From positions 1 to 60,626 of IMG/VR virus record IMGVR_UViG_3300008113_004447: DNA of 60,626 nucleotides, one strand, 5' to 3'. Source of the DNA: a virus. Below are positions 13,743 through 40,263 of this stretch, one piece after another; position 1 is the first letter of the stretch, and the number at the start of each line of letters is the position of its first letter. The notes under the pieces are model-generated. The model searched no databases. It was given only the letters and a program-made list of their open reading frames with translations, and was not told where the DNA came from. Position numbers and translations under genes: made by a program.

Positions 13743-15338
13743 ATGAAAATTAAAAGTATAACAATTGTAGGTGGCGGGAGTGCCGGTTGGATGACTGCTG
13801 CCGGATTAATTGCACAAGTACCCAACATTGAAATAACTTTAATTGAATCACCAAACATTAATATCATTGGAGTTGGAGAAAGCACACTGGCTGGGTTTAA
13901 TGTGTTTCTTGATGCGCTAGATTTAAAAGACGAAGAATGGATGCCGCATTGCAATGCAACGTACAAGACATCTATTAAGTTTACAGACTTTAAAGAAAGA
14001 TTACAAGAACCTCAAAGTTTTCATTATCCTTTTGGCAGTCCTAAGGTTGATAATAAAAAATTTGGTATTATGGAATGGTTCTTGGCAAAGACCCAAGCCC
14101 CAGAGTTAGCGTCTAATACATTTGCAGAATATTATCACGATAATGTATTGATGACCAATGCTAATAAGTTTACCAACAACAGTCGTAACGAATTATCAAA
14201 TTTTAATTTTACATATGATACTGCGTATCATTTTGATGCAACGTTATTTGGACTTTATCTGCGAGATCACTATTGTAAACCCAGAGGCGTAACACATATT
14301 TTAGCAGAAGTAAAAAATGTGCAAGTTAGCAACAACGGAATTGACAGCATTACTTTAGACAACGACAGTAATGTCTCCTCAGATTTGTTTATCGACTGTA
14401 CAGGGTTTAAATCCTATCTTTTAGAAGAAACGCTAGGAGTAGCATTTAAATCGTTTGGTGATACATTATTAAATGACAGCGCCATTGCTACACATCTTCC
14501 ATACATCGACAAAGAACGAGAAATGGAAAGTGTTACTAACTGTACTGCTATAGAAAATGGCTGGGTCTGGAATATACCTGTATGGAATCGTATAGGAACC
14601 GGCTATGTGTATTCTAGTAAGTTTGCAACACAGGCACAAGCAGAAGAACAGTTTAGACAGCATTTAAAATCCAATCGCATGATTTGTCCAGATAGTGCTC
14701 GTGCTGATGCCGCAGTCTTTAAACATATCAAAATTCGCCATGGTGTTCACGAACGTTCTTGGGAAAAGAATGTAGTGGCCATTGGTCTGTCTAACGGTTT
14801 TATCGAGCCTTTAGAATCAACAGGTTTATTAATTACACATAACTCAATCATGAAGTTAATTGATACACTGCATTTAAAAGACGGTAATGTAAATCAATTT
14901 GATATTGACGTGTATAATTCAACATTCTTAAATGAAATTTTATCGTTTAAAGATTTTGTTAGTATGCATTATGCATTGTCGTCAAGAACGGATACAGAAT
15001 ACTGGCGATATGCAACACAGCAAACAACATATTCTAAGATTTTATCCAGTGGCGAGTGGACTACACTGAGCGACGGATACGTTGAGTTTGCCAAACAGAT
15101 TAATAAAAAAGAATTTGGTATGGATTTAGCAGGATTGATTTATATTGCTGCTGGCATGGGCTATACTCCAATAAGTCCTAGACACATGAAATTTACTAGT
15201 AAACTACATCCGGAAGTGTTAACAGCATTAGAAGTATATAAAAAATCATTAGCACTACACAAAGTTAAGATGGAAAGAAAGATATCTGCAATGCCAACTC
15301 ATTTTGAGTATCTATTAAAAAATATTTACAAACAGTAA
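13743..15338 (+). CDS. Flavin-dependent tryptophan-halogenase-family protein
   Basis: The 531-residue length is typical. The FAD-binding GGGSAGWMTA is at 10-19, the catalytic-type lysine of the halogenases is K75 (NATYKTSIKF), the WxWxIP signature is at 274-279 (WVWNIP), and the conserved FIEPLESTG stretch, holding the glutamate of the active site, follows at about 353. Members use FADH2, oxygen and halide to halogenate aromatic substrates; a viral halogenase is known from a cyanophage. No flavin reductase is nearby. It sits between tRNA-Leu and a promoter-driven tRNA group. Substrate unknown. Confidence 0.92.
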   Translation: MKIKSITIVGGGSAGWMTAAGLIAQVPNIEITLIESPNINIIGVGESTLAGFNVFLDALDLKDEEWMPHCNATYKTSIKFTDFKERLQEPQSFHYPFGSPKVDNKKFGIMEWFLAKTQAPELASNTFAEYYHDNVLMTNANKFTNNSRNELSNFNFTYDTAYHFDATLFGLYLRDHYCKPRGVTHILAEVKNVQVSNNGIDSITLDNDSNVSSDLFIDCTGFKSYLLEETLGVAFKSFGDTLLNDSAIATHLPYIDKEREMESVTNCTAIENGWVWNIPVWNRIGTGYVYSSKFATQAQAEEQFRQHLKSNRMICPDSARADAAVFKHIKIRHGVHERSWEKNVVAIGLSNGFIEPLESTGLLITHNSIMKLIDTLHLKDGNVNQFDIDVYNSTFLNEILSFKDFVSMHYALSSRTDTEYWRYATQQTTYSKILSSGEWTTLSDGYVEFAKQINKKEFGMDLAGLIYIAAGMGYTPISPRHMKFTSKLHPEVLTALEVYKKSLALHKVKMERKISAMPTHFEYLLKNIYKQ

Positions 15339-16666: not shown

Positions 16667-17284
16667 ATGAAATTTGCATTTTTTAATCCAACAGTAGTTG
16701 CAGTAGATGATGTGCCTGCTGAACTATATACTAACTTTAAAAGTCAAGTAGATTATGCACATCATCAGTCTCAATTTAATGATGCTGGTAATTCTAATAT
16801 CAGTGTTCGTGGCGGACAACAGATACAGCTATTGCCAAACGAATTTGGGTTAGATACTACTGATCTAAAAACGTTTGTTGAATCAAGATGCCGAGTTTAT
16901 ATTGATACTATATTGAAAACATTAGTACGAAATGATCTCAGTGATTATGAGCCTGTATTAATTAGTGCATGGACTATTAGACAAGAAAGTGGTCAGTATC
17001 AAGCATTACATAGTCACGAAGCACACATTAGTGGAAATATGTATATTGATGTTCCAGACTTAGATTTAAATTCAAACAGCAGTGATGCAAACATTGAATT
17101 TAGATTGCCGGTCATTAGAAACCCTTTAAATTTTATTTTTACTGATGCGTGGAGATTTACTCCGCAGCCTATGAAAATGGTAGTATTTCCAAGTCATCTT
17201 CCACATACCGTATATCCGTGGCAAGGACAAGGACACAGAACTATTTTGGCATGGGATGTTAAATTAATTCCAAGAAAAGATTGA
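16667..17284 (+). CDS. 2OG-Fe(II) oxygenase-like protein, TIGR02466 type
   Basis: 205 residues, AAAGGT ribosome binding site. The double-stranded beta-helix is visible: SWTIRQESGQYQALHSHEAHISGNMYIDVP (iron ligands near LHSHE) and VVFPSHLPHTVYPW with distal His and HRTILAWD carrying the 2OG-binding Arg. These small phage oxygenases are common in marine T4-like phages; substrate unknown. First of fourteen such genes in the window. (Segment given as motif summary: HSHE about 119-122, SHLPH about 179-183.). Confidence 0.8.
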   Translation: MKFAFFNPTVVAVDDVPAELYTNFKSQVDYAHHQSQFNDAGNSNISVRGGQQIQLLPNEFGLDTTDLKTFVESRCRVYIDTILKTLVRNDLSDYEPVLISAWTIRQESGQYQALHSHEAHISGNMYIDVPDLDLNSNSSDANIEFRLPVIRNPLNFIFTDAWRFTPQPMKMVVFPSHLPHTVYPWQGQGHRTILAWDVKLIPRKD

Positions 17285-17309
17285 CAAACACTCTAAAAAG
17301 TGTTATAAT
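17281..17309 (+). promoter_or_regulatory. Sigma70 promoter TTGACA-N17-TATAAT
   Basis: Perfect hexamers overlapping the end of the oxygenase gene. The predicted transcript starts near 17316 and runs through 280 nt of structured non-coding sequence into rpoZ. Confidence 0.9.
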
Positions 17310-17315
17310 AGTTTT

Positions 17316-17594
17316 GTTGTGTAGCAATATACAACCGGTAAAGCGAAGGGTAGATGAGAATAGACACAAAGGTGTGAGCTTCATGCTTACTCCAAACTTA
17401 CAACCATCTGAACAATGGAACGTGTTTATGTGATCCGACCCTAATAGAATGTCATTTGTTAATCGGAAATATATGGACCTCTGTGTATTGTATATTGCAC
17501 ATTGTCAAAGGAAGATTACAACCCTTCCGTTGCATATTGTCCGGTCTATTACTTGACCTTTCGTTGACCCGTTATTTTTAACTTAAAGGATATC
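17316..17594 (+). ncRNA. Structured leader or ncRNA upstream of rpoZ
   Basis: No gene is credible here. GCAATATAC (17324-17332) pairs perfectly with GTATATTGC (17490-17498), GGAAG pairs with CTTCC around 17511-17527, and GGGT/ACCC segments lie between. With a perfect promoter at its 5' edge it is either an independent RNA or a long regulatory leader of rpoZ. Confidence 0.5.
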
Positions 17595-17804
17595 ATGGCT
17601 AGAATTACATCACAAAGAGCAGTTGAAGCAATCGGCGGAAACCGTTACGACCTAGTGTTGGCAGCTAGCCAGCGAGCAAGAGAATTGCGTCGCGGAGCAA
17701 CTCCAATGGTTGTATCCGACAACGGTCCAGTAGTTACTGCATTGAGAGAAATCGAACAAGGCAAGTATACTCAATTGGACTATTTAAAATCTATTAGGAG
17801 ATAA
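17595..17804 (+). CDS. rpoZ: RNA polymerase omega subunit (RpoZ)
   Basis: The 69-residue protein [34 protein letters not shown], then [13 protein letters not shown], matches bacterial omega almost end to end (MARIT..A...IGNRFDLVL.A..RAR.L, ...ALREIE.G). Omega binds and folds the beta-prime subunit and affects ppGpp response. A phage copy could replace host omega and redirect polymerase. No other polymerase subunit is in the window. Strong AAAGGA ribosome binding site. (Residues 1-34 and 46-58 hold the motifs.). Confidence 0.88.
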
Positions 17805-17805
17805 A

Positions 17806-18378
17806 ATGAATATTTCGTTACGCAAGGCAAACGTCTTGCAGAACTTGATCAATGAAGCTATTCGCAACATTAAGATCACCACCAATATTGAAATCAATGA
17901 ATTTCAAGATCCTGCAATTACATTGCAGACTGCAAACACCATGCTGTTTGAAAACGATGCACGTCGTCAAAAACTGTTGTTGGCGTTATACAACATTCGT
18001 GGACTTGTTGGCACAGCCAATGCTAGTTCAGGAATTGATTTAAAATTAGCAACTGCTGCCTTCGTGGACAAGCGTATCAATCAACTTGAAGACATTACTG
18101 CTCTTTCTCCAATGATGGAAGAACAAGTATTAGTAGGTAAGTTGGATAAGATTCGTAATCGCAAGGACGAAAGTCGTGCAAGTTTGTATGGTCGTGATGA
18201 TACGGTATCTACTAGTGTTGTAAGCCAAGAACAGATCAAAATGGCAAAAGCAGAGGTTCAAAATCTCAAGAAGCAAAAACAGAAAATCAATGATGAGATT
18301 CTTGAGCTCAACATTAAAACTGAGATTCCCCTCAGTGACGATGTAAACGAATTGCTAAAGGTCGAAGGCCTGCTGTAA
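17806..18378 (+). CDS. Hypothetical 190-residue helical phage protein
   Basis: AGGAG ribosome binding site, one base after rpoZ's stop. Starts MNISLRKANVLQNLINEAI; a coiled coil at about 143-170 (QIKMAKAEVQNLKKQKQKIN) precedes the end. Relatives seem common in marine phages. Co-transcription with omega is likely. Confidence 0.7.
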   Translation: MNISLRKANVLQNLINEAIRNIKITTNIEINEFQDPAITLQTANTMLFENDARRQKLLLALYNIRGLVGTANASSGIDLKLATAAFVDKRINQLEDITALSPMMEEQVLVGKLDKIRNRKDESRASLYGRDDTVSTSVVSQEQIKMAKAEVQNLKKQKQKINDEILELNIKTEIPLSDDVNELLKVEGLL

Positions 18379-18717
18379 TAAACCCCGCGTTAACTCAGCG
18401 TTAAAGAGTTAGGTGATGGTTGAGTTCCTTAACGACAACTTGGTACATACGGACTTACCACACAGCCCTCCTTAGGGGCCTAGGAAAAAACCGTAGGTGA
18501 GGTCTAACACCTTCCCATAAGAATAAACGTTATGGACAGAGTAACAGCTCAGTCTAGGGCTCATGTGGTGTGAGTAGCTAGACACTTTATAAAAGCTCTT
18601 TGAGCGGCTACAATGGAACTACACTGAACTTGCTATGATACCGGTCGACGCAAGAGGTGCCACGAAGAGTAGGGCCGTCAAGGATTCAAGCGCCACAGAG
18701 AGCCTCTATAAAGTTAT
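18379..18717 (+). ncRNA. Structured ~340-nt non-coding RNA candidate
   Basis: No gene is credible. Long-range stem: ACTTTATA (18584-18591) plus GCTCT (18595-18599) pairs with AGAGC (18699-18703) plus TATAAAGT (18707-18714). A nested hairpin GTCTAG (18552-18557)/CTAGAC (18578-18583) contains CTCA/TGAG. A D-arm-like AACTC...GAGTT is near 18393. It ends 3 nt before the initiator-like tRNA. Not recognisable as tmRNA, RNase P or a group I intron. Confidence 0.5.
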
Positions 18718-18793
18718 CGCGGGATGGAAAAGTTGGCATTTCGTCAGTCTCATAAGCTGAAGGTCGTCGGTTCGAATCCGGCTCCCGCAACCA
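18718..18793 (+). tRNA. Initiator-like tRNA-fMet (CAT)
   Basis: CGCGGGA...CTCCCGCAACCA keeps the C1:A72 mismatch and discriminator A that mark bacterial initiators, and GAAGGTCGTCGGTTCGAATCC closely matches E. coli tRNA-fMet. The anticodon stem TCAGT/GCTGA lacks the usual three G:C pairs next to the loop. Anticodon CAT, encoded CCA. Confidence 0.88.
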
Positions 18794-18806
18794 ATTTGAG
18801 GACATA

Positions 18807-19556
18807 ATGTTTTTTATCAAACGTAAAAAAATAACAGTTGATTGTTTTATTAACAATCCGGCAATATATGATCTATTCAAAATTGATCATGCACACAAAT
18901 ATGCTCCTAAAGAATGGCGACAACTGCCACCGTTAGTTGATGTAAAGTCACTTCAGGACCCAAAAAGTAAAGAAACCATTCCTGTGCCAACAGCAAAGCG
19001 ATGCGTTGGTATTGTTAACTTGTTTACTACTGGGTTTATAATGCCTTGTTGGAGTGACTTCAAAATTGAAATGATGACTGATGGATTGTTTTACAAGCAC
19101 GATCCTATGAATGACTTAGATGCTAATCCTCATCCTCCGTTTATGTATTGGGATAGCCTGTACAAAGGGTTTCAACATGTAAAGATTTCTAGCCCTTGGT
19201 TAATTAAAGAAAAGACCGGTGTTAATTTTACATGGAATCAATGTACCTATAATAATACTGATCGTCACCAAACGTATCATGCACTATCAGCTGTACTTGA
19301 TTTTAAAGCACAATATAATACGCATCTAAATGTTTTCATTAAAAAAGGATCTACTGTTACTTTTAATGCAGGTGATCCTCTAGTACATTTAATTCCGTTA
19401 TCTGAAAAAGAAGTAGATGTAAAATGTCATCTAATCGACGATACAGAATATGCAAAAATGTCTAACGCATACACACGCAAAAGCATGTGGGCCGGACAGC
19501 ATAGAGCATTGCATAATCAAAAAGAAGAATCTAAATGTCCGTTTGGATTTAAGTAA
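18807..19556 (+). CDS. Unrecognised 249-residue phage protein
   Basis: GAGG ribosome binding site. Patterned segments KEWRQLPPLVD, RCVGIVNLFTTGFIMPCWSDFKI, HPPFMYWDSLYKGF, and a beta-rich second half with GDPLVHLIPL. This looks like a cupin-like or 2OG-oxygenase-adjacent family found in marine viruses, but I cannot see an HxD...H iron site. The C-terminus ends in SKCPFGFK. Function unknown. Confidence 0.75.
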   Translation: MFFIKRKKITVDCFINNPAIYDLFKIDHAHKYAPKEWRQLPPLVDVKSLQDPKSKETIPVPTAKRCVGIVNLFTTGFIMPCWSDFKIEMMTDGLFYKHDPMNDLDANPHPPFMYWDSLYKGFQHVKISSPWLIKEKTGVNFTWNQCTYNNTDRHQTYHALSAVLDFKAQYNTHLNVFIKKGSTVTFNAGDPLVHLIPLSEKEVDVKCHLIDDTEYAKMSNAYTRKSMWAGQHRALHNQKEESKCPFGFK

Positions 19557-19562
19557 AAAATT

Positions 19563-19639
19563 CGGAGTGTAGCGCAGTCTGGTAGCGCACCTGGTTTGGG
19601 ACCAGGGGGTCCAAGGTTCGAATCCTTGTACTCCGACCA
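19563..19639 (+). tRNA. tRNA-Pro (TGG)
   Basis: Acceptor CGGAGTG/TACTCCG, anticodon TGG, encoded CCA. Confidence 0.95.
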
Positions 19640-19644
19640 ATAAC

Positions 19645-20238
19645 ATGATAATAATTGATAACGCATTTTCAGAAAGTATATTCAAAAAAATACAAGAAGA
19701 AATTCTTGGATTTGGATTTGATTGGCATTACGGCCGCAGAGTCAATGAAGATGACGGTTCTAATGAAAATAGTTTTTTAATTGGGTGGGTACACACTGTT
19801 GCTGACTCGGGATTAGAACAAAAATTTACTCCCGAACTGTATTCACTAATCGAGTCTGAATTATCTAAAGTATTAGCTAACAATAATGAACCCTGTGTTG
19901 AAATAGGCAGGGTAAGAATAATTTGTAATACAACTGCAGATAAGTCATATATCACACAACCACATGTTGATTTTGATAATACTCATCAAACAGTTTTGTT
20001 ATACATAAATGATGCCGACGGTGATACTATTATATACAATGAAAAATTCAAGCCGGGATTGGGTATTGGTTCAGTGCAACTATGCAAGTCTATCAAACAC
20101 AAATTAACAGTTAAAGCAGAGATTACACCAAAGGCAAATAGATTAGTTATTTTCAATGGATTACATTATCATAGTGGTACTACTCCGACAGAATCAGATC
20201 GTCGTGTAGTCATGAATATCAACTACAAACAGAAGTAA
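19645..20238 (+). CDS. 2OG-Fe(II) oxygenase, prolyl-4-hydroxylase type
   Basis: 197 residues. QPHVDFDNTHQTVLLYINDADGD holds the HxD iron ligands (about H109 and D111), with the distal His in GLHYHSG (about 177) and the 2OG Arg in SDRRVVMNIN. This is the small P4H-like fold used to hydroxylate peptides or small molecules. It starts six bases after tRNA-Pro, with no clear ribosome binding site. Confidence 0.85.
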   Translation: MIIIDNAFSESIFKKIQEEILGFGFDWHYGRRVNEDDGSNENSFLIGWVHTVADSGLEQKFTPELYSLIESELSKVLANNNEPCVEIGRVRIICNTTADKSYITQPHVDFDNTHQTVLLYINDADGDTIIYNEKFKPGLGIGSVQLCKSIKHKLTVKAEITPKANRLVIFNGLHYHSGTTPTESDRRVVMNINYKQK

Positions 20239-20257
20239 GATTAAATAAAAGAACAAT

Positions 20258-20331
20258 GCGGGGTTAGTTTAATGGTAAAACAGCAGATTTCCAATCTTCG
20301 GTCGAGAGTTCGATTCTCTCACTCCGCTCCA
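20258..20331 (+). tRNA. tRNA-Gly (TCC)
   Basis: Acceptor GCGGGGT/ACTCCGC, loop TTTCCAA giving TCC, one mismatch in the anticodon stem, discriminator T, encoded CCA. Confidence 0.9.
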
Positions 20332-20344
20332 TACAAAGGACACA

Positions 20345-20962
20345 ATGAGCACTGAACATTATTATGGCAACTTTCCTAATTTGGGATTTGTAGGCGCTAC
20401 GCTGTCCGAAGAAGAAGTAAGTACTATCAAAGCAGAAATTGCAGACATACAGGCCAACTTTGACACTGCTGAACAAATACATCACAGTCATGCTGGCAAT
20501 ATCAAAAAAGAATACACACTGACAAAATCGCTGCCTGCAATCTTCGATGCAGTAGTTCCGCTAGTAACAGAATATCAAAAGGTTTTTGATTTTGGGTTGA
20601 AAGGTGAGCACCAGTATGCTATTTCTACAGCATGGGTTAACTTTCAAATTAAGCATGAATTCTTTACCGGACACACTCATCAAGGCTTGTTCAGTTTCGC
20701 TCTTTGGGTACAAGTGCCATACACTATTGCGGAAGAACAAGAATACTGTTCAACTCAAGACAAATATATTAACACTATACCTTCATTTAATTTCCATTAT
20801 ACAGATGCGCTAGGACGTATTCGTCCTTGGGTTATTCCAGTAGATTCTACCTTTGAAAATAAAATTGTAGTATTTCCCGGCCCAATGACCCATTCAGTCA
20901 ATCCGTTTTACAGTTCAGATGGATATCGTATTGCTGTATCGGGAAATATTGACTATGCCTGA
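20345..20962 (+). CDS. 2OG-Fe(II) oxygenase-like protein, TIGR02466 type
   Basis: 205 residues, AAAGGA ribosome binding site. FFTGHTHQGLFSFALWV supplies proximal ligands (H111/H113 region), FPGPMTHSVNPFY the distal His and GYRIAVSGN the Arg. Same size and order of motifs as the protein at 16667. Coupled to the following oxygenase by an 8-nt overlap. Confidence 0.8.
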   Translation: MSTEHYYGNFPNLGFVGATLSEEEVSTIKAEIADIQANFDTAEQIHHSHAGNIKKEYTLTKSLPAIFDAVVPLVTEYQKVFDFGLKGEHQYAISTAWVNFQIKHEFFTGHTHQGLFSFALWVQVPYTIAEEQEYCSTQDKYINTIPSFNFHYTDALGRIRPWVIPVDSTFENKIVVFPGPMTHSVNPFYSSDGYRIAVSGNIDYA

Positions 20963-21533
20963 TACTGTTATCGATTCTAACGATGTTTTTCGCAAGTTTG
21001 ATTTTAGTTCCACGATTACAGAGCAAGACAATCAAACAGCAATAGATATTGTTAAACAGATAATTGCCGCTGGCAACTATTTTAAAAATAGTCCACCATA
21101 CCAGACACAAGAAAATATCTTCAGCAGACCCGAAGCTGTTTGGTTAAAGTATCGAATGAGTTTCTTATTCAGTGTATTCATGTATTTGGGCCGCGAGGTT
21201 CGAGTATCTGAAATGATGGCTTGGTCATTTATGACCAATTTAGATACAGTAGAAAATCGAGATACATATTGGCACAATCATTGGCACCCAAAAAATCCAG
21301 ATAGTAAAATGATGAGTGGTATTATGTATTTGCATATTCCGCAAGATGTTAAGAATCGAGATACTTGCGGTACTGAAATGGCTCCTAACGGACCAGACGG
21401 TGACGAAAAGTTTTTTGTACGTCCTAGTGATTACACTTGGTTAATTTATCCTAGTGATCAATGGCATAGGCCAGGCATAGTTCAGAGTGCCGATTATAGA
21501 TTTATTATTGCGGCGGATATAGAATATCAATAA
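20955..21533 (+). CDS. 2OG-Fe(II) oxygenase-like protein
   Basis: 192 residues from ATG 20955, which overlaps the previous stop by 8 nt; an earlier ATG at 20919 would overlap by 44 nt. TYWHNHWHPKNP carries candidate iron His residues, SDQWHRPGI the distal His and ADYRFIIAADIEYQ the Arg. Forms a two-gene unit with 20345. Confidence 0.78.
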   Translation: MPDTVIDSNDVFRKFDFSSTITEQDNQTAIDIVKQIIAAGNYFKNSPPYQTQENIFSRPEAVWLKYRMSFLFSVFMYLGREVRVSEMMAWSFMTNLDTVENRDTYWHNHWHPKNPDSKMMSGIMYLHIPQDVKNRDTCGTEMAPNGPDGDEKFFVRPSDYTWLIYPSDQWHRPGIVQSADYRFIIAADIEYQ

Positions 21534-21793: not shown

Positions 21794-22045
21794 ATGATTA
21801 AAGAATACGAAAGCATTCAAGGTGACAATTTAGAAGAAGCCGACATGGCTCAATTGCTGTCAGTGACTGCTAACGCAGATGCGGTAGCACGAGTTCGGGC
21901 TGCTATTCCAACAGGCCCCAGTCAAAGTCACTGTGACGAATGCGGTGAAGAGATTCCTTTAGCAAGACAACAGGCACTACGTGGTTGCAAGACCTGTATT
22001 GATTGCCAAAATTTATTAGATAGACTTAAGAAAAATTACGGGTAA
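21794..22045 (+). CDS. DksA/TraR-type C4 zinc-finger protein
   Basis: 83 residues from ATG 21794 (GAAGGAAG ribosome binding site; the TTG at 21779 is in frame but unsupported). C-x2-C...C-x2-C in HCDECGEEIPLARQQALRG and CKTCIDCQ is the DksA/TraR zinc finger, including the EIPLARQQAL stretch. TraR-type proteins bind the RNA polymerase secondary channel and mimic DksA plus ppGpp. With the phage omega subunit, this is a second candidate modifier of host polymerase. Ends at a terminator. Confidence 0.85.
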   Translation: MIKEYESIQGDNLEEADMAQLLSVTANADAVARVRAAIPTGPSQSHCDECGEEIPLARQQALRGCKTCIDCQNLLDRLKKNYG

Positions 22046-31304: not shown

Positions 31305-32363
31305 ATGACTACCCAAACTGTATCACTTTGTGAAACCTGTTATCGACATATTCCTGCAGAACGGTTTGAGCGCGAAGGAGCAATGTGGTTAGGTAAGACG
31401 TGCGCCAAACACGGATATCAAGAAGCAATATTAGATATTAACACAGAATTTTATAAAAGTCAAAAATATACTCGCCGAACTCCTAGCTCATATTGGTTAG
31501 ATATTACTAATAGGTGCAATTTAGATTGTCCACATTGTTATCAAATTCCAGATAACACTAGCAAAGACCCAGACATTGATTATTTGTTAATGCAGGTACA
31601 ATCTTGGCCCGATGACGGTTTGCCTGTTAGTCTTGTTGGGGCAGAACCTACAGTAAGAAAAGATCTTGCAGATTTAGTGTTAGCCATACAGGCATTGCCC
31701 GGCAAACCTAGAACTGTTATAATAGTCACTAACGGGGTGTATCTTGCTAAATGGGATTATGTAAAAAGATTCGAAGGTATCCCTAGACTTAAATGGACGT
31801 TTGGATTAAATCATCCAGATTACAACGGCGGCAATATTAGAGTTAAGCAGTTAGAAGGTTTAGAGAACTGCATTAAATTAGGGCTCGAAGTTAAAACATT
31901 AACTTACACATTAGGCAATTTAACTCAATTAACTGATGTTCTCGAGGAAGTGCAAACATTTCATCGAAGAGGCGTTTGTCATAATGCAAGAATACAAGTA
32001 GGAGTTAATATTGGTCGAGTTCCGGAGGAGACTGAAGATAGCGAACTGTATCTTTCGGAATTAGTATGCGAAGCTGAAAAAATATGTACAGAAAAAAATT
32101 GGACATATTTTCCGGATATTGTTGGTGGTAACAGAACACACTACGCTGTAGATATTAACGGTGCAGAGCATAAATTTATTAAATGGTGCGATGTCAAAAC
32201 TATTGACCTTGAAGAAGTACAAAGTGAATCTTGGGCTAACATTGTGCCAGGAAAGCCAATGTCAACTTTATTGCATCAAGTGATATTAAGAGATCAGGCA
32301 ATAAACAAAGGATTACCGTTATTTGATACTATACCGGAAAAGTATCAAAGACAGGACATATGA
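31305..32363 (+). CDS. Radical SAM protein, MJ0619/Tes-like, paralogue 1
   Basis: 352 residues. The N-terminal CETCYRHIPAERFEREG...KTCAKHG (C9, C12, C33, H36) is the zinc-ribbon-like leader of the MJ0619/tetraether-synthase radical SAM group. The radical SAM site is C71-NLD-C75-PH-C78 (DITNRCNLDCPHC), and VSLVGAEPTVRKDL replaces the usual GGEP. Known relatives act on pterins or lipids, so substrate is open. Overlaps the next paralogue by 4 nt (ATGA). Confidence 0.88.
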   Translation: MTTQTVSLCETCYRHIPAERFEREGAMWLGKTCAKHGYQEAILDINTEFYKSQKYTRRTPSSYWLDITNRCNLDCPHCYQIPDNTSKDPDIDYLLMQVQSWPDDGLPVSLVGAEPTVRKDLADLVLAIQALPGKPRTVIIVTNGVYLAKWDYVKRFEGIPRLKWTFGLNHPDYNGGNIRVKQLEGLENCIKLGLEVKTLTYTLGNLTQLTDVLEEVQTFHRRGVCHNARIQVGVNIGRVPEETEDSELYLSELVCEAEKICTEKNWTYFPDIVGGNRTHYAVDINGAEHKFIKWCDVKTIDLEEVQSESWANIVPGKPMSTLLHQVILRDQAINKGLPLFDTIPEKYQRQDI

Positions 32364-33427
32364 AAAAATTAGCAGACACTACATCAATTTGTGAGCATTG
32401 TTATAGACATGTGCCAGCAGTTCGATTTGAACGAGACGGTGCTATTTGGTTGAGTAAAAAATGCGTATGGCACGGAGAGTCAGAATATCTTGTAGAGCCT
32501 AACGCTGATTTTTATATTAACTATACATATCCAATCCCTGAAAATACTACGTATTGTCTAGACATCACTAATAGATGCAATTTAAATTGCCCACATTGTT
32601 ATCAAATCCCCGACAATATGAGTAAGGATCCGTCAATAGACGATATTCTTAATATAATAAAATCTTGGGATGATGACGGGTATGCTGTTGCGTTAATGGG
32701 CGCAGAGCCAACGACTCGAAAAGATCTTCCTGAACTATGCAGGGCTATTCAATCATTACCCGGCAAGTTACGTGCAATTATGATTTTAACCAATGGGGTA
32801 TATTTGTCCGATTACGAATATGCTGAACAATTTGCAGACATGCCGAAAGTGTTGTGGACGGTTGGATTAAATCACCCCGACTATCAAGGTGCAACTGTTA
32901 GAAAGAAACAAATTGAAGGTATTGAAAATTGTTTAAAGCTAGGAATGAAAATTAAGAATGTTAGTTACACTCTTGAAACTATTTCTCAGCTTGAATACTG
33001 CTTAGAAGAAATACAAGAGTTCGGTAATAGAATTTGTAGTCAGTATCGAATTCGGGTTGGTACAGACATTGGCCGTCACCCTGGCGAGGAAAAAGTATTT
33101 CTATCGGAACTGATAGAAATGGTAATTGCAGTGTGTGACAAGAAAGGATGGCAACATGAGTATGATCCAGAATATGGGATTAGAGTACATTATCCTTTGC
33201 GTATTAATGGCATATTAGTTAAAATTATTCAATGGCCGGATGTACGTACTATTGATCTTGAAGAAGAGCAAACTGAGTCTTGGGCCGATATGCTACCAGG
33301 AAAACCAGTGTCTCCACTTGTTCACCAAGTTATACTTAGAGATGGTGCAGTAAATAAAAATTTACCTTTATATGATACTGTACCTGAAAAATATCAGAGA
33401 AAATATGATACACGGAATAAACAATAA
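32360..33427 (+). CDS. Radical SAM protein, MJ0619/Tes-like, paralogue 2
   Basis: 355 residues, clear tandem duplicate of 31305. Leader CEHCYRHVPAVRFERDG (C11, C14, C35), radical SAM C73-NLN-C77-PH-C80, and MGAEPTTRKDL. The C-termini match (LPLYDTVPEKYQRK). Two near-equal copies suggest distinct substrates or successive positions of one substrate. Confidence 0.88.
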   Translation: MKKLADTTSICEHCYRHVPAVRFERDGAIWLSKKCVWHGESEYLVEPNADFYINYTYPIPENTTYCLDITNRCNLNCPHCYQIPDNMSKDPSIDDILNIIKSWDDDGYAVALMGAEPTTRKDLPELCRAIQSLPGKLRAIMILTNGVYLSDYEYAEQFADMPKVLWTVGLNHPDYQGATVRKKQIEGIENCLKLGMKIKNVSYTLETISQLEYCLEEIQEFGNRICSQYRIRVGTDIGRHPGEEKVFLSELIEMVIAVCDKKGWQHEYDPEYGIRVHYPLRINGILVKIIQWPDVRTIDLEEEQTESWADMLPGKPVSPLVHQVILRDGAVNKNLPLYDTVPEKYQRKYDTRNKQ

Positions 33428-33440
33428 AACATATTACAAC

Positions 33441-34205
33441 ATGGAACAATATGTGGATATGGAAGCATTTGAAAAAATGCAGCCAGAAATCCTAACAGGA
33501 TTTGCTGTAGCAAGACATCATGCTAAAGAAGGTACATGGATGGCACCGGGGTTTACCTTTGATGATATGAGCTATAAGCTGCACTGGAAACCTATATACC
33601 AAGCAATGGAAGAATTTAAAGCATTGCCAGACGGGCCTCTTAAACAAGCAGGTATGGCACTAATGCCTAAGAATTTTAAAAACTTTCAAGAACGTAACGT
33701 ATTCACTCGTTTCTTAAAAATGGCCATGGGTGCTTATGATCCTTACATCTATTATTACTTGTGGGAAGAAGGTTCGTGGGACGATAGAACAGCACCTCGC
33801 AAACTAACACCCGAAGCACAATATTTCCCTAATGTAGTTAAGTGGGTCGAAAGCCTTGTAGGTACAGTGTTTGAAGATATTGGGCGTGTTATATTCTTTC
33901 ATTGCGAAGCAGACGGCATCCCGTTTGAACACAGAGACTTAGATGCTCGGAATGGGGTTAATGTTGTTGTCCCGCATCGTAATGAATTTATACATATACG
34001 TCCTAACACTAAGAAGGCAATGTACCTGTGGGATCCAGAGACTAAAAATAAAACTTACTTGAACTGCCGTGCTGCATGGTGGAATGATGTTGACTGGCAC
34101 GGTGGTGAACAGATTATGGAACAGAGCTACGGGTTACGCATTGACGGCAAATTTACACAAGCATTCCGTAAACAGTTAGGCGTTGATCATTTAGAGAACT
34201 ATTAA
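33441..34205 (+). CDS. 2OG-Fe(II) oxygenase-like protein, 254 residues
   Basis: The start is uncertain: ATG 33441 lies after the previous stop, ATG 33405 would overlap by 23 nt. FHCEADGIPFEHRDLDARNG gives HxD (EHRD), VDWHGGEQ the distal His and SYGLRIDG the Arg. VFTRFLKMAMGAYDPYIYYYLWEEG is an added helical part. Follows the two radical SAM paralogues in one transcript. (Longest motif quoted is split by spacing in the protein as residues about 90-115.). Confidence 0.78.
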   Translation: MEQYVDMEAFEKMQPEILTGFAVARHHAKEGTWMAPGFTFDDMSYKLHWKPIYQAMEEFKALPDGPLKQAGMALMPKNFKNFQERNVFTRFLKMAMGAYDPYIYYYLWEEGSWDDRTAPRKLTPEAQYFPNVVKWVESLVGTVFEDIGRVIFFHCEADGIPFEHRDLDARNGVNVVVPHRNEFIHIRPNTKKAMYLWDPETKNKTYLNCRAAWWNDVDWHGGEQIMEQSYGLRIDGKFTQAFRKQLGVDHLENY

Positions 34206-34615
34206 TGAAATTTATTGAAAAATTTAAAGAAATGGCTCGACCTGGTTATTCAAATAATAATTTTTTCTTTCATCAGATGAATCCAAAATCTAAAGAAATG
34301 CAAAATTTTAAATTTACTCTACCTGAGTTGCCTGAAACACGAACCGACGTTAATTGGTGGTTTGTAATGTTATATCCTGGCGAGTTCCAAGCTATGCACA
34401 TCGACCCTCAACTGACTGAAGTCAGTAATCCGGTACGATACACTATGTTTTTACAAGATTGGGAACCCGGACACATATTTGTCTACGATGACAAAGTTGC
34501 TGCAAATTATAAAGCCGGTGATATATTTGAGTGGAGTGATCCTATGACCGTACACGGGCCGGCAAATATAGGATACAACACAAGATACACTCTACAAATA
34601 ACTATGTACGATTAA
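34205..34615 (+). CDS. Minimal 2OG-Fe(II) oxygenase-like protein
   Basis: 136 residues, one of the smallest here. WWFVMLYPGEFQAMHIDPQL gives HxD, IFEWSDPMTVHGPANIG the distal His and NTRYTLQITMYD the Arg. Starts within the stop of the previous gene; ends in a 4-bp convergent overlap. Confidence 0.75.
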   Translation: MKFIEKFKEMARPGYSNNNFFFHQMNPKSKEMQNFKFTLPELPETRTDVNWWFVMLYPGEFQAMHIDPQLTEVSNPVRYTMFLQDWEPGHIFVYDDKVAANYKAGDIFEWSDPMTVHGPANIGYNTRYTLQITMYD

Positions 34616-35160
34616 CTATGAACAATTATATGAAAAATATACTGTGGACGTAGTCCGGCATTGATTCCGCTGTGCCATTCTTTGTAATTGTTCCACTTTA
34701 TCAACTGTCCAAAATCTTGATTGTACAGATAATCATTACCTACAATAAGAATATGGCCGTGATTAGCACCTTCCATAAAACAACTATATCTTGTTAAAGT
34801 TCCTTTTTCAAGATAAGCAGCTTCCTCTTCGTCAACATCCCAATGCCACGGAGCCATATAGCCCGGGTCTATTCGACTTATCCAGGCACGTACTAATCTA
34901 CCGCCCATGTCTTTAGCAAACTTTGTTGCAAACATTTCATCAAAATGTTCTTTAGGATAAAAATTAGTCCATTTGATACTGTCCATATTGAAATTAGCAG
35001 CTTGCCATCTTTCATATATTTCTTTGTATCCCGGAGTTTCTAAATTCCATATTTCTGGATCTGTAGTAATTGTTTTTCCTTGTTGGGATGATATAACGGC
35101 AATCAGTTGACTCCAGTTATACTCTCCTCCTGACGTGCCTAACGATGTAACACTATTCAT
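34612..35160 (-). CDS. 2OG-Fe(II) oxygenase-like protein
   Basis: 182 residues from ATG 35160, chosen because it overlaps the upstream stop by 8 nt; the longer frame (35196) overlaps by 44. WISRIDPGYMAPWHWDVDEEE gives HxD (WHWD), EWHSGINAGLRPQYIFHI the distal His and Arg. Operon with the kinase-like and hydroxylase-like genes upstream. Confidence 0.78.
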   Translation of the reverse strand: MNSVTSLGTSGGEYNWSQLIAVISSQQGKTITTDPEIWNLETPGYKEIYERWQAANFNMDSIKWTNFYPKEHFDEMFATKFAKDMGGRLVRAWISRIDPGYMAPWHWDVDEEEAAYLEKGTLTRYSCFMEGANHGHILIVGNDYLYNQDFGQLIKWNNYKEWHSGINAGLRPQYIFHIIVHS

Positions 35161-35836
35161 TGAATAACCTTTTATAAAATTTTGGAAACGGATCACCTGG
35201 CCATTTCACATGTGTTGAAAGTGTTCTTTTAAAAAACATTTCAAAATCTATTAACCCATCAGAAGTAACTTCATCAAATCGAGTTCTTGATCCTTGGCCT
35301 AACATACCTTCTATTTTAGCTTTTTCAAGATACCTCTCTTCATGAGAAATACAAGAATAAAAATCAAAGGTTTTTAATTTATTATTTTTATCTAGATAAA
35401 AGCAATGGGGATATAACGCCATTTTGTAATACCCGGCAGAGACAACGTCTTTTAAAATATTGAATAATTGTGGTTGCCAATCCGAGCACTCTTTGTCAAT
35501 GTCACGGCTATCAGTATATACAATATCATTGCAAGTTTCAACATTCCATTCGATAAAAATCTTTTTGTTTTCTTTATCAATTTCAATAATGGAAGGTGCC
35601 CAACTGTACCCTTGAAATATTTCAAGATACTTAACTTCTCTTTCAAAAAAGAAATCTACTAATTCTTTTGTAAGCCGTGTATTTTCTTTTTGGTATTCAC
35701 TAGTTTCATCCCACAACATGCACATTATATTGCCCTCCGGATTAATCAACGGAGTGTACAATAAATTTGTGGCACATCGGATCTTATCTACAGGATCTTG
35801 CTTGTAGTAATATTTCCAATTGGTTGTATCTATCAT
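35153..35836 (-). CDS. Kinase-fold-like paralogue 2
   Basis: 227 residues, related to 30562 (WKYYYKQDPVDKIRCATNLLYTPLI; FEREVKYLEIF; YPHCFYLDKNNKLKTFDFYSC). Catalytic kinase residues are not recognisable. Both copies sit in minus-strand operons with 2OG oxygenases or unknown enzymes, so a shared partner role is plausible. (Motifs at about 6-30, 66-76 and 140-160.). Confidence 0.5.
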   Translation of the reverse strand: MIDTTNWKYYYKQDPVDKIRCATNLLYTPLINPEGNIMCMLWDETSEYQKENTRLTKELVDFFFEREVKYLEIFQGYSWAPSIIEIDKENKKIFIEWNVETCNDIVYTDSRDIDKECSDWQPQLFNILKDVVSAGYYKMALYPHCFYLDKNNKLKTFDFYSCISHEERYLEKAKIEGMLGQGSRTRFDEVTSDGLIDFEMFFKRTLSTHVKWPGDPFPKFYKRLFNE

Positions 35837-36504
35837 AATATGTGTAACTCGAATTCAGGATATAAAATATTTTTCAAATCATCTATTGCTATCTTTTCTA
35901 TAGTGAAAGAAACACAAGTCGGTGTGTGGTTAAATGCAGTTATCAAATTATTTTTATTGGCATAATTCAACCACACACTAATAGTTTGATCAAAAAAGAA
36001 TCTAGCATTATTTTGATCTAACCTCGATGGCGTAATTTTAACATCGATTGGGTTGTTCAAAATGTTAGGGGTCAATAGTTTTCTTACAACCAATTGTACT
36101 CGAACTATCTGGCCAAAGTTTGCTGCACTGTGCCTCGGACTAGCATCCATTTCATACCAAAATCCATCTTGGGTAGTTTCAAACATTTCTTGGCTATCAA
36201 TGTTAATTATAAAACTTTCGCTACCAGAAAGATTTAAATGGTAACGATCGTCAATGTCGGAATGACACTGATAACATTCCCCTGCCTTTAAGCCGATAAT
36301 CCTAGCTTCTCCAAAATCTACAGGAAGTGTGTTTAAAATCTTTTCCCAAGCTGTATCTTTATACTCTAATTTGGTTTCCCAGGGATCATAAAAGAATCTA
36401 CCCGTTGGTTCATTAATAGTCAACCGGAAATCAGTAGGCGGAACGGACTGTAGTGCGTCTTGTATCAGATTTGTAGAGACTGTATAATGTAACTTAGTTA
36501 GCAT
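35833..36504 (-). CDS. Asp/Asn hydroxylase-like 2OG oxygenase with extra domain
   Basis: 223 residues from ATG 36504; the longer frame runs across the divergent promoter. LKAGECYQCHSDIDDRYHLN gives HxD, MDASPRHSAANFG the distal His and IVRVQLVVRKLL the Arg. The last 70 residues (IDVKITPSRLDQNNARFFFDQ...) form an added domain that I do not recognise. TAAATA is 4 nt before the ATG. Confidence 0.78.
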   Translation of the reverse strand: MLTKLHYTVSTNLIQDALQSVPPTDFRLTINEPTGRFFYDPWETKLEYKDTAWEKILNTLPVDFGEARIIGLKAGECYQCHSDIDDRYHLNLSGSESFIINIDSQEMFETTQDGFWYEMDASPRHSAANFGQIVRVQLVVRKLLTPNILNNPIDVKITPSRLDQNNARFFFDQTISVWLNYANKNNLITAFNHTPTCVSFTIEKIAIDDLKNILYPEFELHIL

Positions 36505-36508
36505 GAAA

Positions 36509-36514
36509 TATTTA
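36509..36514 (-). promoter_or_regulatory. TAAATA motif 4 nt before the start
   Basis: Minus-strand CATAAATATTTC then ATG at 36504; no Shine-Dalgarno. Back to back with the motif at 36533. Confidence 0.55.
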
Positions 36515-36532
36515 TGTGATACTTTAATGGTG

Positions 36533-36538
36533 TAAATA
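36533..36538 (+). promoter_or_regulatory. TAAATA motif 4 nt before the start
   Basis: GTAAATAAAAC then ATG at 36543; no Shine-Dalgarno. The whole divergent intergenic region is only 38 bp. Confidence 0.55.
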
Positions 36539-36542
36539 AAAC

Positions 36543-37391
36543 ATGAGTAGAATAACCATTGCACCGACTTACGATGCACAATGGCTTGAGATTGAGAGGC
36601 CGCAGCCTCTCACTGATTTTAAAATTGAACAACTTCAGCAAGATGTATTAAGTGGAAAAATTGACAAGGATATTACGGACAGCGTCTATGACAATTTTAA
36701 ATTTGAAGTTGAGCAATGGCTACTGAGGTCTCCGTTTAATAATTTTATAGGGCTTGATTCATTTTTACGCAAAGATATTATAAACGGATGTACACAATTT
36801 ATTGATAACTTATACATGCAAGGGCCTGTACAAGTATTACGTAACGATTACAAATATCACGAAAGATTGGGATTAGCGTATGTAAAAGATGTGGGCTCGC
36901 TGATACCAGATGTTCCATTAATCCTAGCGATGCCGTTTCCTAGCATCGGTGCGCCACATCAAGACATGGAGGAAATATTAAATGAATGTTTGGTTAAAAA
37001 GATTAAGGTCCACATTGACGGTGCTTGGACCACCTGTTGTCGTAATATCATATTTGATTATGGGCATCCTGCTATATCTAGTGTTGGTATTAGTCTTTCC
37101 AAGGGTCTAGGGTTAGGATGGAACAGAATAGGTTTACGTTGGACTCGGCAATCAACTCTAGATAGTGTTACAATAATGAATGACTTCCATATGAACAATC
37201 GTGCATTGGCAATGATTGGCTTACATTTTATACGCAATTTGCCACCGGATTATCTTTGGTTAACGTATGGTGAACATTATTATAAAGTCTGTAGAGATTT
37301 CAATTTACTTCCAACACGAAGTATACACCTAGCAATAAAGGACGGACATCCAGTAGGGGTAAGCCCATTGATAAGGTATTTAGAACAATGA
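36543..37391 (+). CDS. Aminotransferase-like PLP protein (fold type I), short
   Basis: 282 residues, shorter than the usual 380-400. KVHIDGAW carries D159, where the Asp that binds the PLP ring nitrogen is expected. SLSKGLGLGWNRIG carries K187, the Schiff-base lysine, and R195, a phosphate ligand (class I/II pattern SxSKxxG...RxG). The N-terminal part is abbreviated and the small C-terminal domain reduced. Overlaps the PP-loop gene by 4 nt, so both act with the radical SAM gene that follows. Reaction unknown. Confidence 0.7.
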   Translation: MSRITIAPTYDAQWLEIERPQPLTDFKIEQLQQDVLSGKIDKDITDSVYDNFKFEVEQWLLRSPFNNFIGLDSFLRKDIINGCTQFIDNLYMQGPVQVLRNDYKYHERLGLAYVKDVGSLIPDVPLILAMPFPSIGAPHQDMEEILNECLVKKIKVHIDGAWTTCCRNIIFDYGHPAISSVGISLSKGLGLGWNRIGLRWTRQSTLDSVTIMNDFHMNNRALAMIGLHFIRNLPPDYLWLTYGEHYYKVCRDFNLLPTRSIHLAIKDGHPVGVSPLIRYLEQ

Positions 37392-38125
37392 AGTTACATA
37401 ATGTAGACGGAGTTAATATACCATTCGAAACTACATGGAATAATATTGCCATTAGTGTAAGCGGTGGCGCTGATAGTGCTATGTTAGCTTATCTTCTTTG
37501 CAACCTAGTTCCTAGCTATCAAAAGAATTTCAAAGTTCATGTCATTAGCCATGTACGTATGTGGAAAACAAGACCATGGCAACAATGGGACAGCGTGTCT
37601 GTTTATAACTGGCTTACACATCGATTTCCTAATATAACATTCCAGAGACATATTAATTTTATAGCACCCGAATTAGAGTACGGAAACATAGGTCCGTCAT
37701 TGACAGACGAATACGGAAAAAATGTTAGTGGTGATAATATAGAACAACGATCATTTGCTGAATTTACTTGTCATCGTGAAGATGTTGATGCGTACTATAA
37801 TGCTGTTACACGCAATCCTAAAGATGTAAATTTTAAAGGGATGTCGGAAAGAGACATTGACCCCAACGAAAGTAATCAACATTTAACAATAATGATCCAT
37901 ATGGGGAAATACGCAATTCACCCGTTTAGATTTGTAGAAAAGTCTTGGATAGTTAATCAATACAAACGATTAGACATTGAAGATCTATTTAATATTACCC
38001 GTAGCTGCGAAGGCGAGTTTAACGGAATAAATTATAAAACATATACACCTGGACAATTTGTTCCGTTATGTAACGAATGTTTTTGGTGTAAAGAAAGGGC
38101 GTGGGCAATTGAACAGCAACATTAA
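37388..38125 (+). CDS. QueC-like PP-loop ATPase
   Basis: 245 residues. SVSGGADSAMLAYLL (23-37) is the PP-loop (SGGxDS) that adenylates a carboxyl or carbonyl. Near the C-terminus TRSCEGE...LCNECFWCKERAWAI gives the four-cysteine zinc site of QueC, the 7-cyano-7-deazaguanine synthase that makes a nitrile. True QueC or a relative that amidates or activates another acid cannot be told apart here. A QueD homologue is at 56379; neither QueE nor a transferase is certain. Confidence 0.75.
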   Translation: MKLHNVDGVNIPFETTWNNIAISVSGGADSAMLAYLLCNLVPSYQKNFKVHVISHVRMWKTRPWQQWDSVSVYNWLTHRFPNITFQRHINFIAPELEYGNIGPSLTDEYGKNVSGDNIEQRSFAEFTCHREDVDAYYNAVTRNPKDVNFKGMSERDIDPNESNQHLTIMIHMGKYAIHPFRFVEKSWIVNQYKRLDIEDLFNITRSCEGEFNGINYKTYTPGQFVPLCNECFWCKERAWAIEQQH

Positions 38126-39377
38126 TCCTCCAACATTTTGTATGCACCCTTTTACAGGACTAGCTACTAGAGAAGACGGTGCTATACAAGTATGCTGCCG
38201 TAGCCATCCTATTGGCTGGATACAAGAACAATCACTAGAAGAAATATGGAACGGCGATAACATGAAACGTATTCGCAAACAGGTACTCGGCGGTGTCCGT
38301 CCTCCTGAGTGTGAACCATGTTTTAGTTTAGAAGACCAAGGGGTTGAAAGTTTAAGATTGCGACATATCAAAGGCGAAATACCAGAAGCACGTATTAAAT
38401 TATATCCAAACGCAACTGCGGCAATGCATAGTGATTTTACTATGCCTTTTGAAATTCCAACAATGGAATTAAAATTAAATAATCTTTGCAATTTAAAGTG
38501 TCGTATGTGTCATCCAGGCGATAGCACCAGTTGGAATGATTGGAGTGAAATTAAAGATTTTTATAAAGGTTCTGGACAGGTTATTTTTAATCTAGTAGAA
38601 GAACATAATTTAGAAAATAAACCGTTACTTGATAAGTTCGAAGATAACCCTAATTGGTGGGCGAGTTTAGAAAAGAACCTGCCTCACTTTAGACGTGTGG
38701 AGTTTGCAGGTGGCGAGCCGCTAATGGATCCACAGCATTATCGAATCTTAGACATGCTTGCTCCGTATGGACACCAAATTGAAATTAAGTATGCTACTAA
38801 TCTAACTACCTTAGGTAAAGGTAATAGAACAGTTTGGGAATACTGGCCCAAGTTCAAATCAGTGGCTGTAAATGTAAGCATAGACGGAATTAGTTCTAGT
38901 TATGAATATGTTAGAGGAAATGCTTCGTGGGAAGAATTAATTAATAATATAAAACAAATACAAACTATCCCTAATATTAGTCGTATAGTCGGTGCTGTTG
39001 CAGTGCAAGTAAGCAATGTATTGGTATTAGATAAAATGATAGAATATTTTTTAAATGATTTAGGTATTGTATTTTATACAAACATGGTAAAATACCCTAA
39101 TGTATTATCCATTCAAACATTACCGGCGCCTTTAAAGAATATTGCATATCATAAATTAGAAGTAATGAAAAGTAAAATATTAGAATATAAAATGATTAAA
39201 GAACATCCAATGCTTGTAGGAATTACTATTGGACAAATTGAAGGAGTTCAAAATTTCCTCCGTGCTAAGGATGAAAATCACTTATGGAAAGATTGTATCG
39301 AATTTAATCGTAAACTAGATGTCACCCGCAGTCAAAGTTTTACAGATGTAACTCCGGAATTCAAACCATATGTATAA
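38109..39377 (+). CDS. Twitch-domain radical SAM protein 1
   Basis: About 422 residues from a TTG at 38109, chosen because the conserved FCMHPFTGLATREDG must be included and no ATG precedes it outside the previous gene; the start is uncertain. N-terminal twitch (C11, C29-C30, C68, C71) binds an auxiliary cluster; the radical SAM site is C127-NLK-C131-RM-C134, then FAGGEPLMDPQH. Twitch/SPASM radical SAM enzymes commonly modify peptides. Overlaps the PP-loop gene. Confidence 0.85.
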   Translation: MNSNINPPTFCMHPFTGLATREDGAIQVCCRSHPIGWIQEQSLEEIWNGDNMKRIRKQVLGGVRPPECEPCFSLEDQGVESLRLRHIKGEIPEARIKLYPNATAAMHSDFTMPFEIPTMELKLNNLCNLKCRMCHPGDSTSWNDWSEIKDFYKGSGQVIFNLVEEHNLENKPLLDKFEDNPNWWASLEKNLPHFRRVEFAGGEPLMDPQHYRILDMLAPYGHQIEIKYATNLTTLGKGNRTVWEYWPKFKSVAVNVSIDGISSSYEYVRGNASWEELINNIKQIQTIPNISRIVGAVAVQVSNVLVLDKMIEYFLNDLGIVFYTNMVKYPNVLSIQTLPAPLKNIAYHKLEVMKSKILEYKMIKEHPMLVGITIGQIEGVQNFLRAKDENHLWKDCIEFNRKLDVTRSQSFTDVTPEFKPYV

Positions 39378-40263
39378 AATTACAAGTTCGTGGCCTCATC
39401 AAGATCAAATTAAAATTGAATGGAATCTTGGCAAACGTTGCAACTACGACTGTACATATTGTCCATCAAGTATCCATGATAACTTTAGTCCGCATACCGA
39501 TATTAATTTGTTAGAAGCAACTGTGGACAAATTATGCAAGCTCGGCAAACCTCTAAGAATAAGCCTAACTGGTGGCGAGCCGTGTGTACACCCTGACATA
39601 GAAGATTTATTAGACTATTTTAAACGCAAGGGTATTTTTTGGGTCAATTTAACAACCAACGGCACTAGGGGTTATCGTTGGTATCTTCAACACGAAATGT
39701 TTTTTAATCATCTTGTGTTTAGTTTACATTTTGAACACGAATGGGCTAGAATATTTGATACTATTTTAAAATATTATGATAGTACAGAAAGAGATTTCTT
39801 TGTTAATGTAATGGCTCATCATGACTACATGCACAATGTTAAAGTTGTTGTTAAAAAGTTTGATGAAATTGGAGTCAAATATGCTGTTCGCAGAATTCGT
39901 TGGACCGAAGGTGATCATAATGTATTTGACGATTTGAAATATGATGGTAAAGATCTACAATGGATCTTGGACCATGACGCTACCGTTAAACCAAACTGTC
40001 GTATTGATGAAGAAAAAATTATCCATGCCAATGATGTGATTAAACAACACTTAAATCAATTCAAAGGTTGGCAATGCAATGCAGGCTTGGAAAGTTTGAT
40101 GATTAACTGGGACGGCGAAGTGCATCGTGCTACTTGTAGAGTAGGCGGTAGTTTAGGCAACATATATCAAGGTACCTTTACTATTCCTACCTCCCCAATT
40201 ATATGTACTAGAGATTACTGCACCTGTGCTGCAGATATACCATTATCTAAATTAAAGATTTAG
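39370..40263 (+). CDS. Radical SAM protein with C-terminal Cys-rich region
   Basis: 297 residues. CNYDCTYC (C24, C28, C31) and LTGGEPCVHPDIEDLL are canonical. The end, GWQCNAGLESLMINWDGEVHRATC then ICTRDYCTCAAD, looks like a SPASM-type auxiliary cluster site and is shared with 40247 and 46902. Overlaps 38109 by 8 nt; 17-bp convergent overlap with 40247. (Cys-rich part about residues 236-290.). Confidence 0.87.
   Translation: MYKITSSWPHQDQIKIEWNLGKRCNYDCTYCPSSIHDNFSPHTDINLLEATVDKLCKLGKPLRISLTGGEPCVHPDIEDLLDYFKRKGIFWVNLTTNGTRGYRWYLQHEMFFNHLVFSLHFEHEWARIFDTILKYYDSTERDFFVNVMAHHDYMHNVKVVVKKFDEIGVKYAVRRIRWTEGDHNVFDDLKYDGKDLQWILDHDATVKPNCRIDEEKIIHANDVIKQHLNQFKGWQCNAGLESLMINWDGEVHRATCRVGGSLGNIYQGTFTIPTSPIICTRDYCTCAADIPLSKLKI

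Follow-up and report, generated by a model that had tools for sequence, protein, structure and literature searches.

Among the closest described counterparts of the gene analysed here is bacterial RpoZ, the omega subunit of RNA polymerase, as found in E. coli and Vibrio cholerae. Deletion of omega is usually non-lethal in bacteria (PMC9638019). Residues 2-5 of omega are described as coordinating, together with residues of beta', the ppGpp phosphates at polymerase site 1, and E. coli polymerase carrying an omega that lacks residues 2-5 was reported to bind ppGpp with a Kd of >100 uM (PMC7676912). The ppGpp-binding motif of omega is given as MAR (PMC6416229; PMC9638019). Omega has also been described as an activator docking site, for GafA of the gene transfer agent RcGTA, a phage-derived programme that contacts omega via this activator (PMC9638019). 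The secondary-channel factors TraR and DksA are likewise small proteins that act on the host polymerase and are tied to ppGpp control (PMC7676912).

The locus described here encodes an omega of 69 amino acids that resembles bacterial RpoZ in family, fold, core residues, MAR motif and the equivalent of R52, but differs from it in having a basic rather than a long acidic tail and in lying outside the gmk-rpoZ-spoT operon; in other viral omegas the ppGpp contacts are lost as well. While RcGTA uses the omega of its host, here the subunit is supplied by the phage, and whereas TraR and DksA act on a different subunit and at site 2, omega belongs to site 1. Phages of the phiKZ type carry multi-subunit RNA polymerases and so also possess RNA polymerase subunit genes; here omega was found alone. 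The RNA element that precedes the gene recalls GOLLD and ROOL, which are likewise large structured noncoding RNAs among phage tRNA genes, but it measures about 262 nt, differs in sequence, has no Rfam match and is always followed by the same gene, fam1, where this can be tested. No report of a phage-encoded omega was found in the titles and abstract openings of the open-licence literature, subscription papers and preprints being outside the scope of the search, and we know of no earlier account.

The omega gene and its viral relatives

The window, meaning the whole stretch of DNA that was analysed, is a single virus record, 60,626 bases in length. It contains 27 tRNA genes and a number of phage-type genes, including those for 2OG-Fe(II) oxygenases, a tryptophan halogenase, a phosphoesterase, thymidylate synthase and tail-fibre-like proteins. 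Four 2OG-Fe(II) oxygenase-like genes are found in 5 kb among the tRNA genes (16667-21533) and the tryptophan halogenase-like gene (13743-15338; phrog_2928, E 1.4e-151) is placed within the tRNA array. A ferredoxin-dependent bilin reductase (PF05996, E 3e-14) is encoded at 321-1004 and several radical SAM proteins at 31305-46399, one of which has an HMPTM zinc ribbon and another a SPASM domain. The omega locus lies inside the tRNA array, where omega is flanked by a 2OG oxygenase gene, the structured RNA and fam1; the gmk/spoT neighbourhood, which is common for rpoZ but not required of a family member, is absent. The features of interest are the following:

17281..17309, + strand: sigma70-like promoter read from the sequence, TTGACA (17281-17286), 17-nt spacer, TATAAT (17304-17309)
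17310..17571, + strand: structured noncoding RNA of about 262 nt with a 5' hairpin, a long closing helix and inner hairpins, based on covariation; no Rfam family
17583..17594, + strand: ribosome-binding site region (AAAGG) for the omega gene, read from the sequence
17595..17804, + strand: RNA polymerase omega subunit (69 aa) of the viral clade, with a basic tail and an intact set of ppGpp-site residues
17806..18378, + strand: fam1, next gene after omega, a 190-aa protein predicted to be all-helical; constant companion of the RNA
21794..22045, + strand: TraR/DksA-like zinc-finger protein, 83 aa (PF01258, phrog_54); candidate modifier of the host polymerase

The open reading frame spans exactly 17595-17804, from an ATG start to a TAA stop, and encodes a bona fide omega subunit. 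The protein was matched by Pfam PF01192 (E 1.3e-15, 57.6 bits, cut-off 26) and by the NCBIfam rpoZ profile TIGR00690 (E 3.3e-12, 46.3 bits, cut-off 23.6), the latter aligning omega residues 1-57 with profile positions 1-58 of 60. Its top PDB sequence match was an omega (E 1.8e-11), as were 23 of the 24 matches listed at E<=1, the remaining one being a non-omega protein at E 0.45, while no PHROG family was matched at E<=1. The predicted structure (pLDDT 84.9) most resembled the omega chains of solved polymerases, with its best Foldseek match in 8tom_K (E 4.7e-4, TM 0.78), the only match to pass E 0.001, which is unsurprising at 69 aa; among the matches listed, all 50 PDB entries were RNA polymerase or expressome structures. 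The original prediction of an omega subunit is thereby borne out. Its description of the RpoZ match as nearly end to end is accurate over residues 1-60 but not over the last ~10 residues, which have no counterpart in bacterial omega.

A scan of IMG/VR identified 50 loci encoding omega relatives, several of which are located on records of 260-353 kb with T4-type capsid genes. Among 20 omega-carrying records, the T4-type major capsid gene gp23 scored above cut-off in 9 and a terminase domain in 3; profile search of the window record returned neither. The window record is probably a fragment of a phage genome, and the omega-carrying phage is probably large and T4-like. Only 9 of 50,697 deposited phage records had an omega match and several of these resemble bacterial contigs or contaminants, two of them bearing Salmonella enterica assembly names, so that cultured phages give a scant view of the gene.

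In a phylogenetic tree, all 81 distinct viral omegas fell on one side of the branch separating them from 46 bacterial omegas (45 from fetched Pseudomonadota loci and that of E. coli) with an SH-aLRT support of 99. As the tree is based on 56 columns, has many open forks and no outgroup, and samples only Pseudomonadota on its bacterial side, the claim is limited to a viral lineage that is distinct from Pseudomonadota rpoZ, with its root unplaced. Two of the 81 viral sequences (L054 and L127) are highly degenerate omega-like proteins (23-26 bits) encoded at loci with RNA and fam1. The lineage is long-established, and omega is under purifying selection, with dN/dS of 0.07-0.36 in the eight closest pairs and a median of 0.34 over 95 pairs. 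Placement of the protein outside the omega family, by phylogeny or by structure, had been named as the outcome that would overturn the prediction; both the tree and the fold match leave omega-family membership standing. The relatives at 50 loci and the separate viral clade likewise agree with the gene being phage-encoded.

A structured RNA and fam1 at the omega locus

The omega gene is preceded by an RNA element with clear signs of conserved structure. In an alignment of 51 sequences (A2, comprising 51 of 52 representatives, the exception being L141, whose 5' end continues into foreign sequence), 97.9% of cells were paired and 32 of 51 base pairs changed on both sides. Double-change cells numbered 346 as compared with 114 in shuffled alignments, none of 500 shuffles reaching the observed value. 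Two further alignments held 51 of 55 (A3) and 37 of 42 (A4) rows. A promoter of the form TTGAC...TATxxT is found ahead of 57 of 70 distinct RNA copies, while in a few phages a tRNA gene, in place of a promoter, immediately precedes the RNA. The median distance from a 27-base motif of the RNA to the first start codon is ~31-33 nt irrespective of whether omega or fam1 comes first, which fits both a separate transcript and an omega-fam1 leader. Small open reading frames just upstream of omega, which had been grouped with it, were rejected since they are translated pieces of the RNA.

Searching Rfam 15 at E<=1 gave no match at 17310-17571 in the window. At E<=0.5, nine related loci returned only sub-threshold tRNA-Sec fragments at or near the element (26.8 bits, cut-off 47; L071 and L084). 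Assignment to a known Rfam family was thus rejected, as nothing scored above threshold at the element; GOLLD and tmRNA are found elsewhere in relatives, a GOLLD RNA being located at positions 325-787 of L063, ~1 kb upstream of an RNA-omega-fam1 locus. A 27-base piece of the RNA, when scanned, was found in 109 stretches of viral contigs. No copy was found in cultured phages by blastn, and when Caulobacter phage regions with a fam1 relative were scanned without gaps over 25 bases, at best 15 of the 25 agreed. Four phages in which omega is located elsewhere (L029, L042, L045 and L047) have a putative diverged form of the RNA ahead of fam1, assigned on the basis of alignment A5 and folding. Folded alone, the four diverged RNAs form a 5' hairpin, a closing helix and an inner arm, and the fold of all eight rows is weaker than that of these four (covariation term 4.2). 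Kept in deeply diverged phages and with fam1 behind it in every testable case, the element looks like an undescribed RNA family.

The gene fam1 is separated from omega by a single base in the window, while the two overlap by 4-23 bases in most near relatives. In 118 of 128 occurrences of the RNA the contig extends for 900 nt or more downstream, and fam1 follows in all 118, a count that includes some contigs fetched twice. After deduplication 73 RNA loci remained. The order was RNA-omega-fam1 in 33 of these and RNA-fam1-gap-omega in 19, while 15 had RNA-fam1 without omega in 1.5 kb; in the rest the contig was cut after fam1 (3) or after omega (1), or the locus was too short or cut (2). These counts make RNA and fam1 a fixed pair and omega a frequent companion, the tie of omega to the pair being positional only.

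Fam1 is predicted to be mostly helical (pLDDT 90.6). It had no Pfam match above cut-off, no PHROG match of weight and no PDB match of its fold at E<=0.001 (best 3kdq, E 0.035). Relatives were found in CcrColossus, CcrPW and other phages. Structural relatives, each either uncharacterised or without a name, were found in phages and, more weakly, in two giant viruses. A second conserved intergenic block is present at 18494-18586, between fam1 and tRNA-Met, with up to 93.5% identity over 93 bases in related loci; it also occurs at other places in L007 and L028.

A conserved core, a basic tail and the host polymerase

The window omega has the conserved core arginines corresponding to R26 and R28 of E. 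coli, the former being present in all 81 viral omegas and the latter in 78 of these. The tail, on the other hand, sets the two groups apart, being short and basic in viral omegas and long and acidic in bacterial ones. The median net charge of the whole protein was +4 for viral omegas (67 of 75 positive) compared to -11 for bacterial omegas (8 of 143 positive), and the medians for the part after residue 57 were +3 and -10, respectively; sequences were cut at 130 residues, and the degenerate L054 and L127 as well as four cut rows (L050, L053, L088 and L112) are excluded from the table. The net charge of the window omega is +5.

Genes for beta' (PF04998) and beta (PF00562) were detected in none of the 20 omega-carrying viral records, while 14 of 14 control genomes were positive. 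Records may be incomplete and the window is a probable fragment, but five of the records exceed 260 kb. A multi-subunit RNA polymerase of the phage itself was rejected on these grounds. As the 20 records yielded neither a beta nor a beta' gene, the phage omega most likely joins the host polymerase, in line with the action on host polymerase that was originally proposed. Replacement of host omega and a shift in promoter choice, which the proposal also named, are candidate consequences.

The same proposal counted the TraR/DksA-like protein as a second candidate modifier. The gene is real, starting with ATG at 21794, and its product matched PF01258 (E 1.1e-10, 41.7 bits, cut-off 24.9) and phrog_54 (E 6.9e-18), while scoring below the NCBIfam TraR cut-off (51.6 versus 59.7 bits). 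It is present in 1 of the 20 omega-carrying records, namely the window, and a general pairing of the two genes was therefore rejected.

Our preferred reading is that the viral omega joins the host polymerase and gives it a basic face, with loss of ppGpp contacts added in sister lineages only; we assign it a probability of roughly 0.55. According to this reading the phage omega, made from the same locus as the structured RNA and the helical fam1 protein, would bind host beta' and either replace host omega or fill up for it. The host polymerase would thereby gain a phage-specific face, consisting of the omega core and a short basic aromatic tail without the long acidic host tail, that phage transcription factors, possibly fam1, could use for docking. 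In sister lineages, loss of the N-terminal motif and R52 should deafen the polymerase to ppGpp at site 1. Bacteria usually tolerate omega deletion (PMC9638019), which counts against the preferred reading, as a phage may gain little by supplying the subunit.

Residues of ppGpp site 1

The residues of the ppGpp site were compared across viral and bacterial omegas, including R52, which we take to be a ppGpp contact at site 1. All 143 distinct Pseudomonadota omegas have A2 and R3, followed by V or I at position 4, and carry either R (135) or K (8) at position 52. The window omega has retained the N-terminal M-A-R-I as well as the arginine that corresponds to E. coli R52. Among viral omegas, scored without the degenerate L054 and L127 and with MAK (L008) and MSR (L052) counted as canonical, the N-terminus is kept in 46 of 79, all of which have R (39) or K (7) at position 52. 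It is changed in 33, and 28 of these are also changed at position 52, to L (18), N (6), E (2), M (1) or I (1). Of the other five, three keep R52 (L038 and L040, which have a two-residue insertion, and L050, which is cut by the contig end) and two are cut before position 52. Among the 77 readable viral omegas, 28 have hence lost both the motif and residue 52, and none has lost R52 with the N-terminus retained. In loss and in retention, the two components of the site thus go hand in hand.

The pattern invites the reading that phage omega exists in order to change site 1 and render the polymerase ppGpp-insensitive during infection. The joint loss, set against retention of both parts in every Pseudomonadota omega, speaks for it, as does the Kd of >100 uM of E. 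coli polymerase lacking omega residues 2-5 (PMC7676912). The loss classes may in principle simply match the omega of the respective hosts. A loss-class phage, L131, has a weak, sub-threshold match to betaproteobacterial tmRNA (36.4 bits, gathering score 84), which counts against such matching, as the omega of its host would then probably have the site. Permuted tmRNA genes are present up to ~5 kb from omega in the large phages L028, L029, L030, L046 and L048, with tags such as ANDEQFALAA; these are presumably of betaproteobacterial type and count in the same direction.

As a role shared by the family, however, ppGpp insensitivity is doubtful. The site is retained in the window copy as in 45 further viral omegas, and for the window copy the altered ppGpp response originally suggested is unlikely given that residues 2-4 and 52 are retained; whatever benefit this copy confers cannot be ppGpp blindness via omega. 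When the trait columns were excluded from the tree, 4 changes of the N-terminus and 3 of R52 were counted, but a correlated-loss test found just 1 independent pair on supported branches, and the association of the two losses was not significant. Polymerase combining the 2-5 deletion with beta' substitutions was reported still to bind ppGpp, just ~2-fold below wild type in one experiment (PMC7676912). Phage T4 was little affected in a host lacking ppGpp, forming larger plaques with few transcript changes and no significant change in burst size (PMC6024815), which makes strong selection on ppGpp less likely. An altered ppGpp response through omega nevertheless remains plausible, judging by these residues, in the loss-class relatives. 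The ppGpp-residue class changes 9 times on the fam1 tree, which suggests that omega alleles have been exchanged between phages.

Other explanations for a phage omega

A plainer explanation is that the phage tops up omega to fold or stabilise beta' once host synthesis stops, with no new property involved. The window omega is indeed ordinary in its structural core and in its ppGpp residues, and stabilisation of the polymerase is the known role of the subunit (PMC9638019). Both the near-uniform change of tail charge in a distinct viral clade and the disappearance of ppGpp residues from several classes argue for an altered property, and we consider mere supply rather unlikely. More speculative, and in our estimate improbable, is an extension of the preferred reading in which RNA and fam1 form a ribonucleoprotein that docks via the basic face of omega and remodels the host polymerase, several lineages also switching off ppGpp sensing at site 1.

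Small proteins that bind the host polymerase are common in phages, and the host tail is missing from phage omega; the protein could on this basis be a decoy or inhibitor that occupies beta' and disturbs host omega or host-specific transcription without forming a working phage polymerase. We regard this as very unlikely, as the omega core is conserved across the whole fold with no further sign of an inhibitor, and these phages, in which no beta or beta' was detected, appear to need the host polymerase. Contamination or misassembly, with a host rpoZ in a contig miscalled as viral, can be dismissed despite the contaminant-like records among the nine database matches, since the RNA, omega and fam1 order is repeated in many independent contigs, related records carry capsid genes, the tree separates the clade from bacteria and in the window the gene adjoins a 2OG oxygenase gene, the RNA and fam1 rather than gmk or spoT.

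Implications

The preferred reading, in which phage omega joins the host polymerase with a basic face, bears on how phages take over transcription. Known routes by which phages do so are to bind, modify or redirect the host RNA polymerase, and diverse phage omegas would add exchange of a core subunit to these. The roles of ppGpp site 1 and of the omega tail have long been open because the effects of omega deletion are weak. Natural omega variants with and without the ppGpp contacts, encoded at the same locus, constitute ready-made tests of both.
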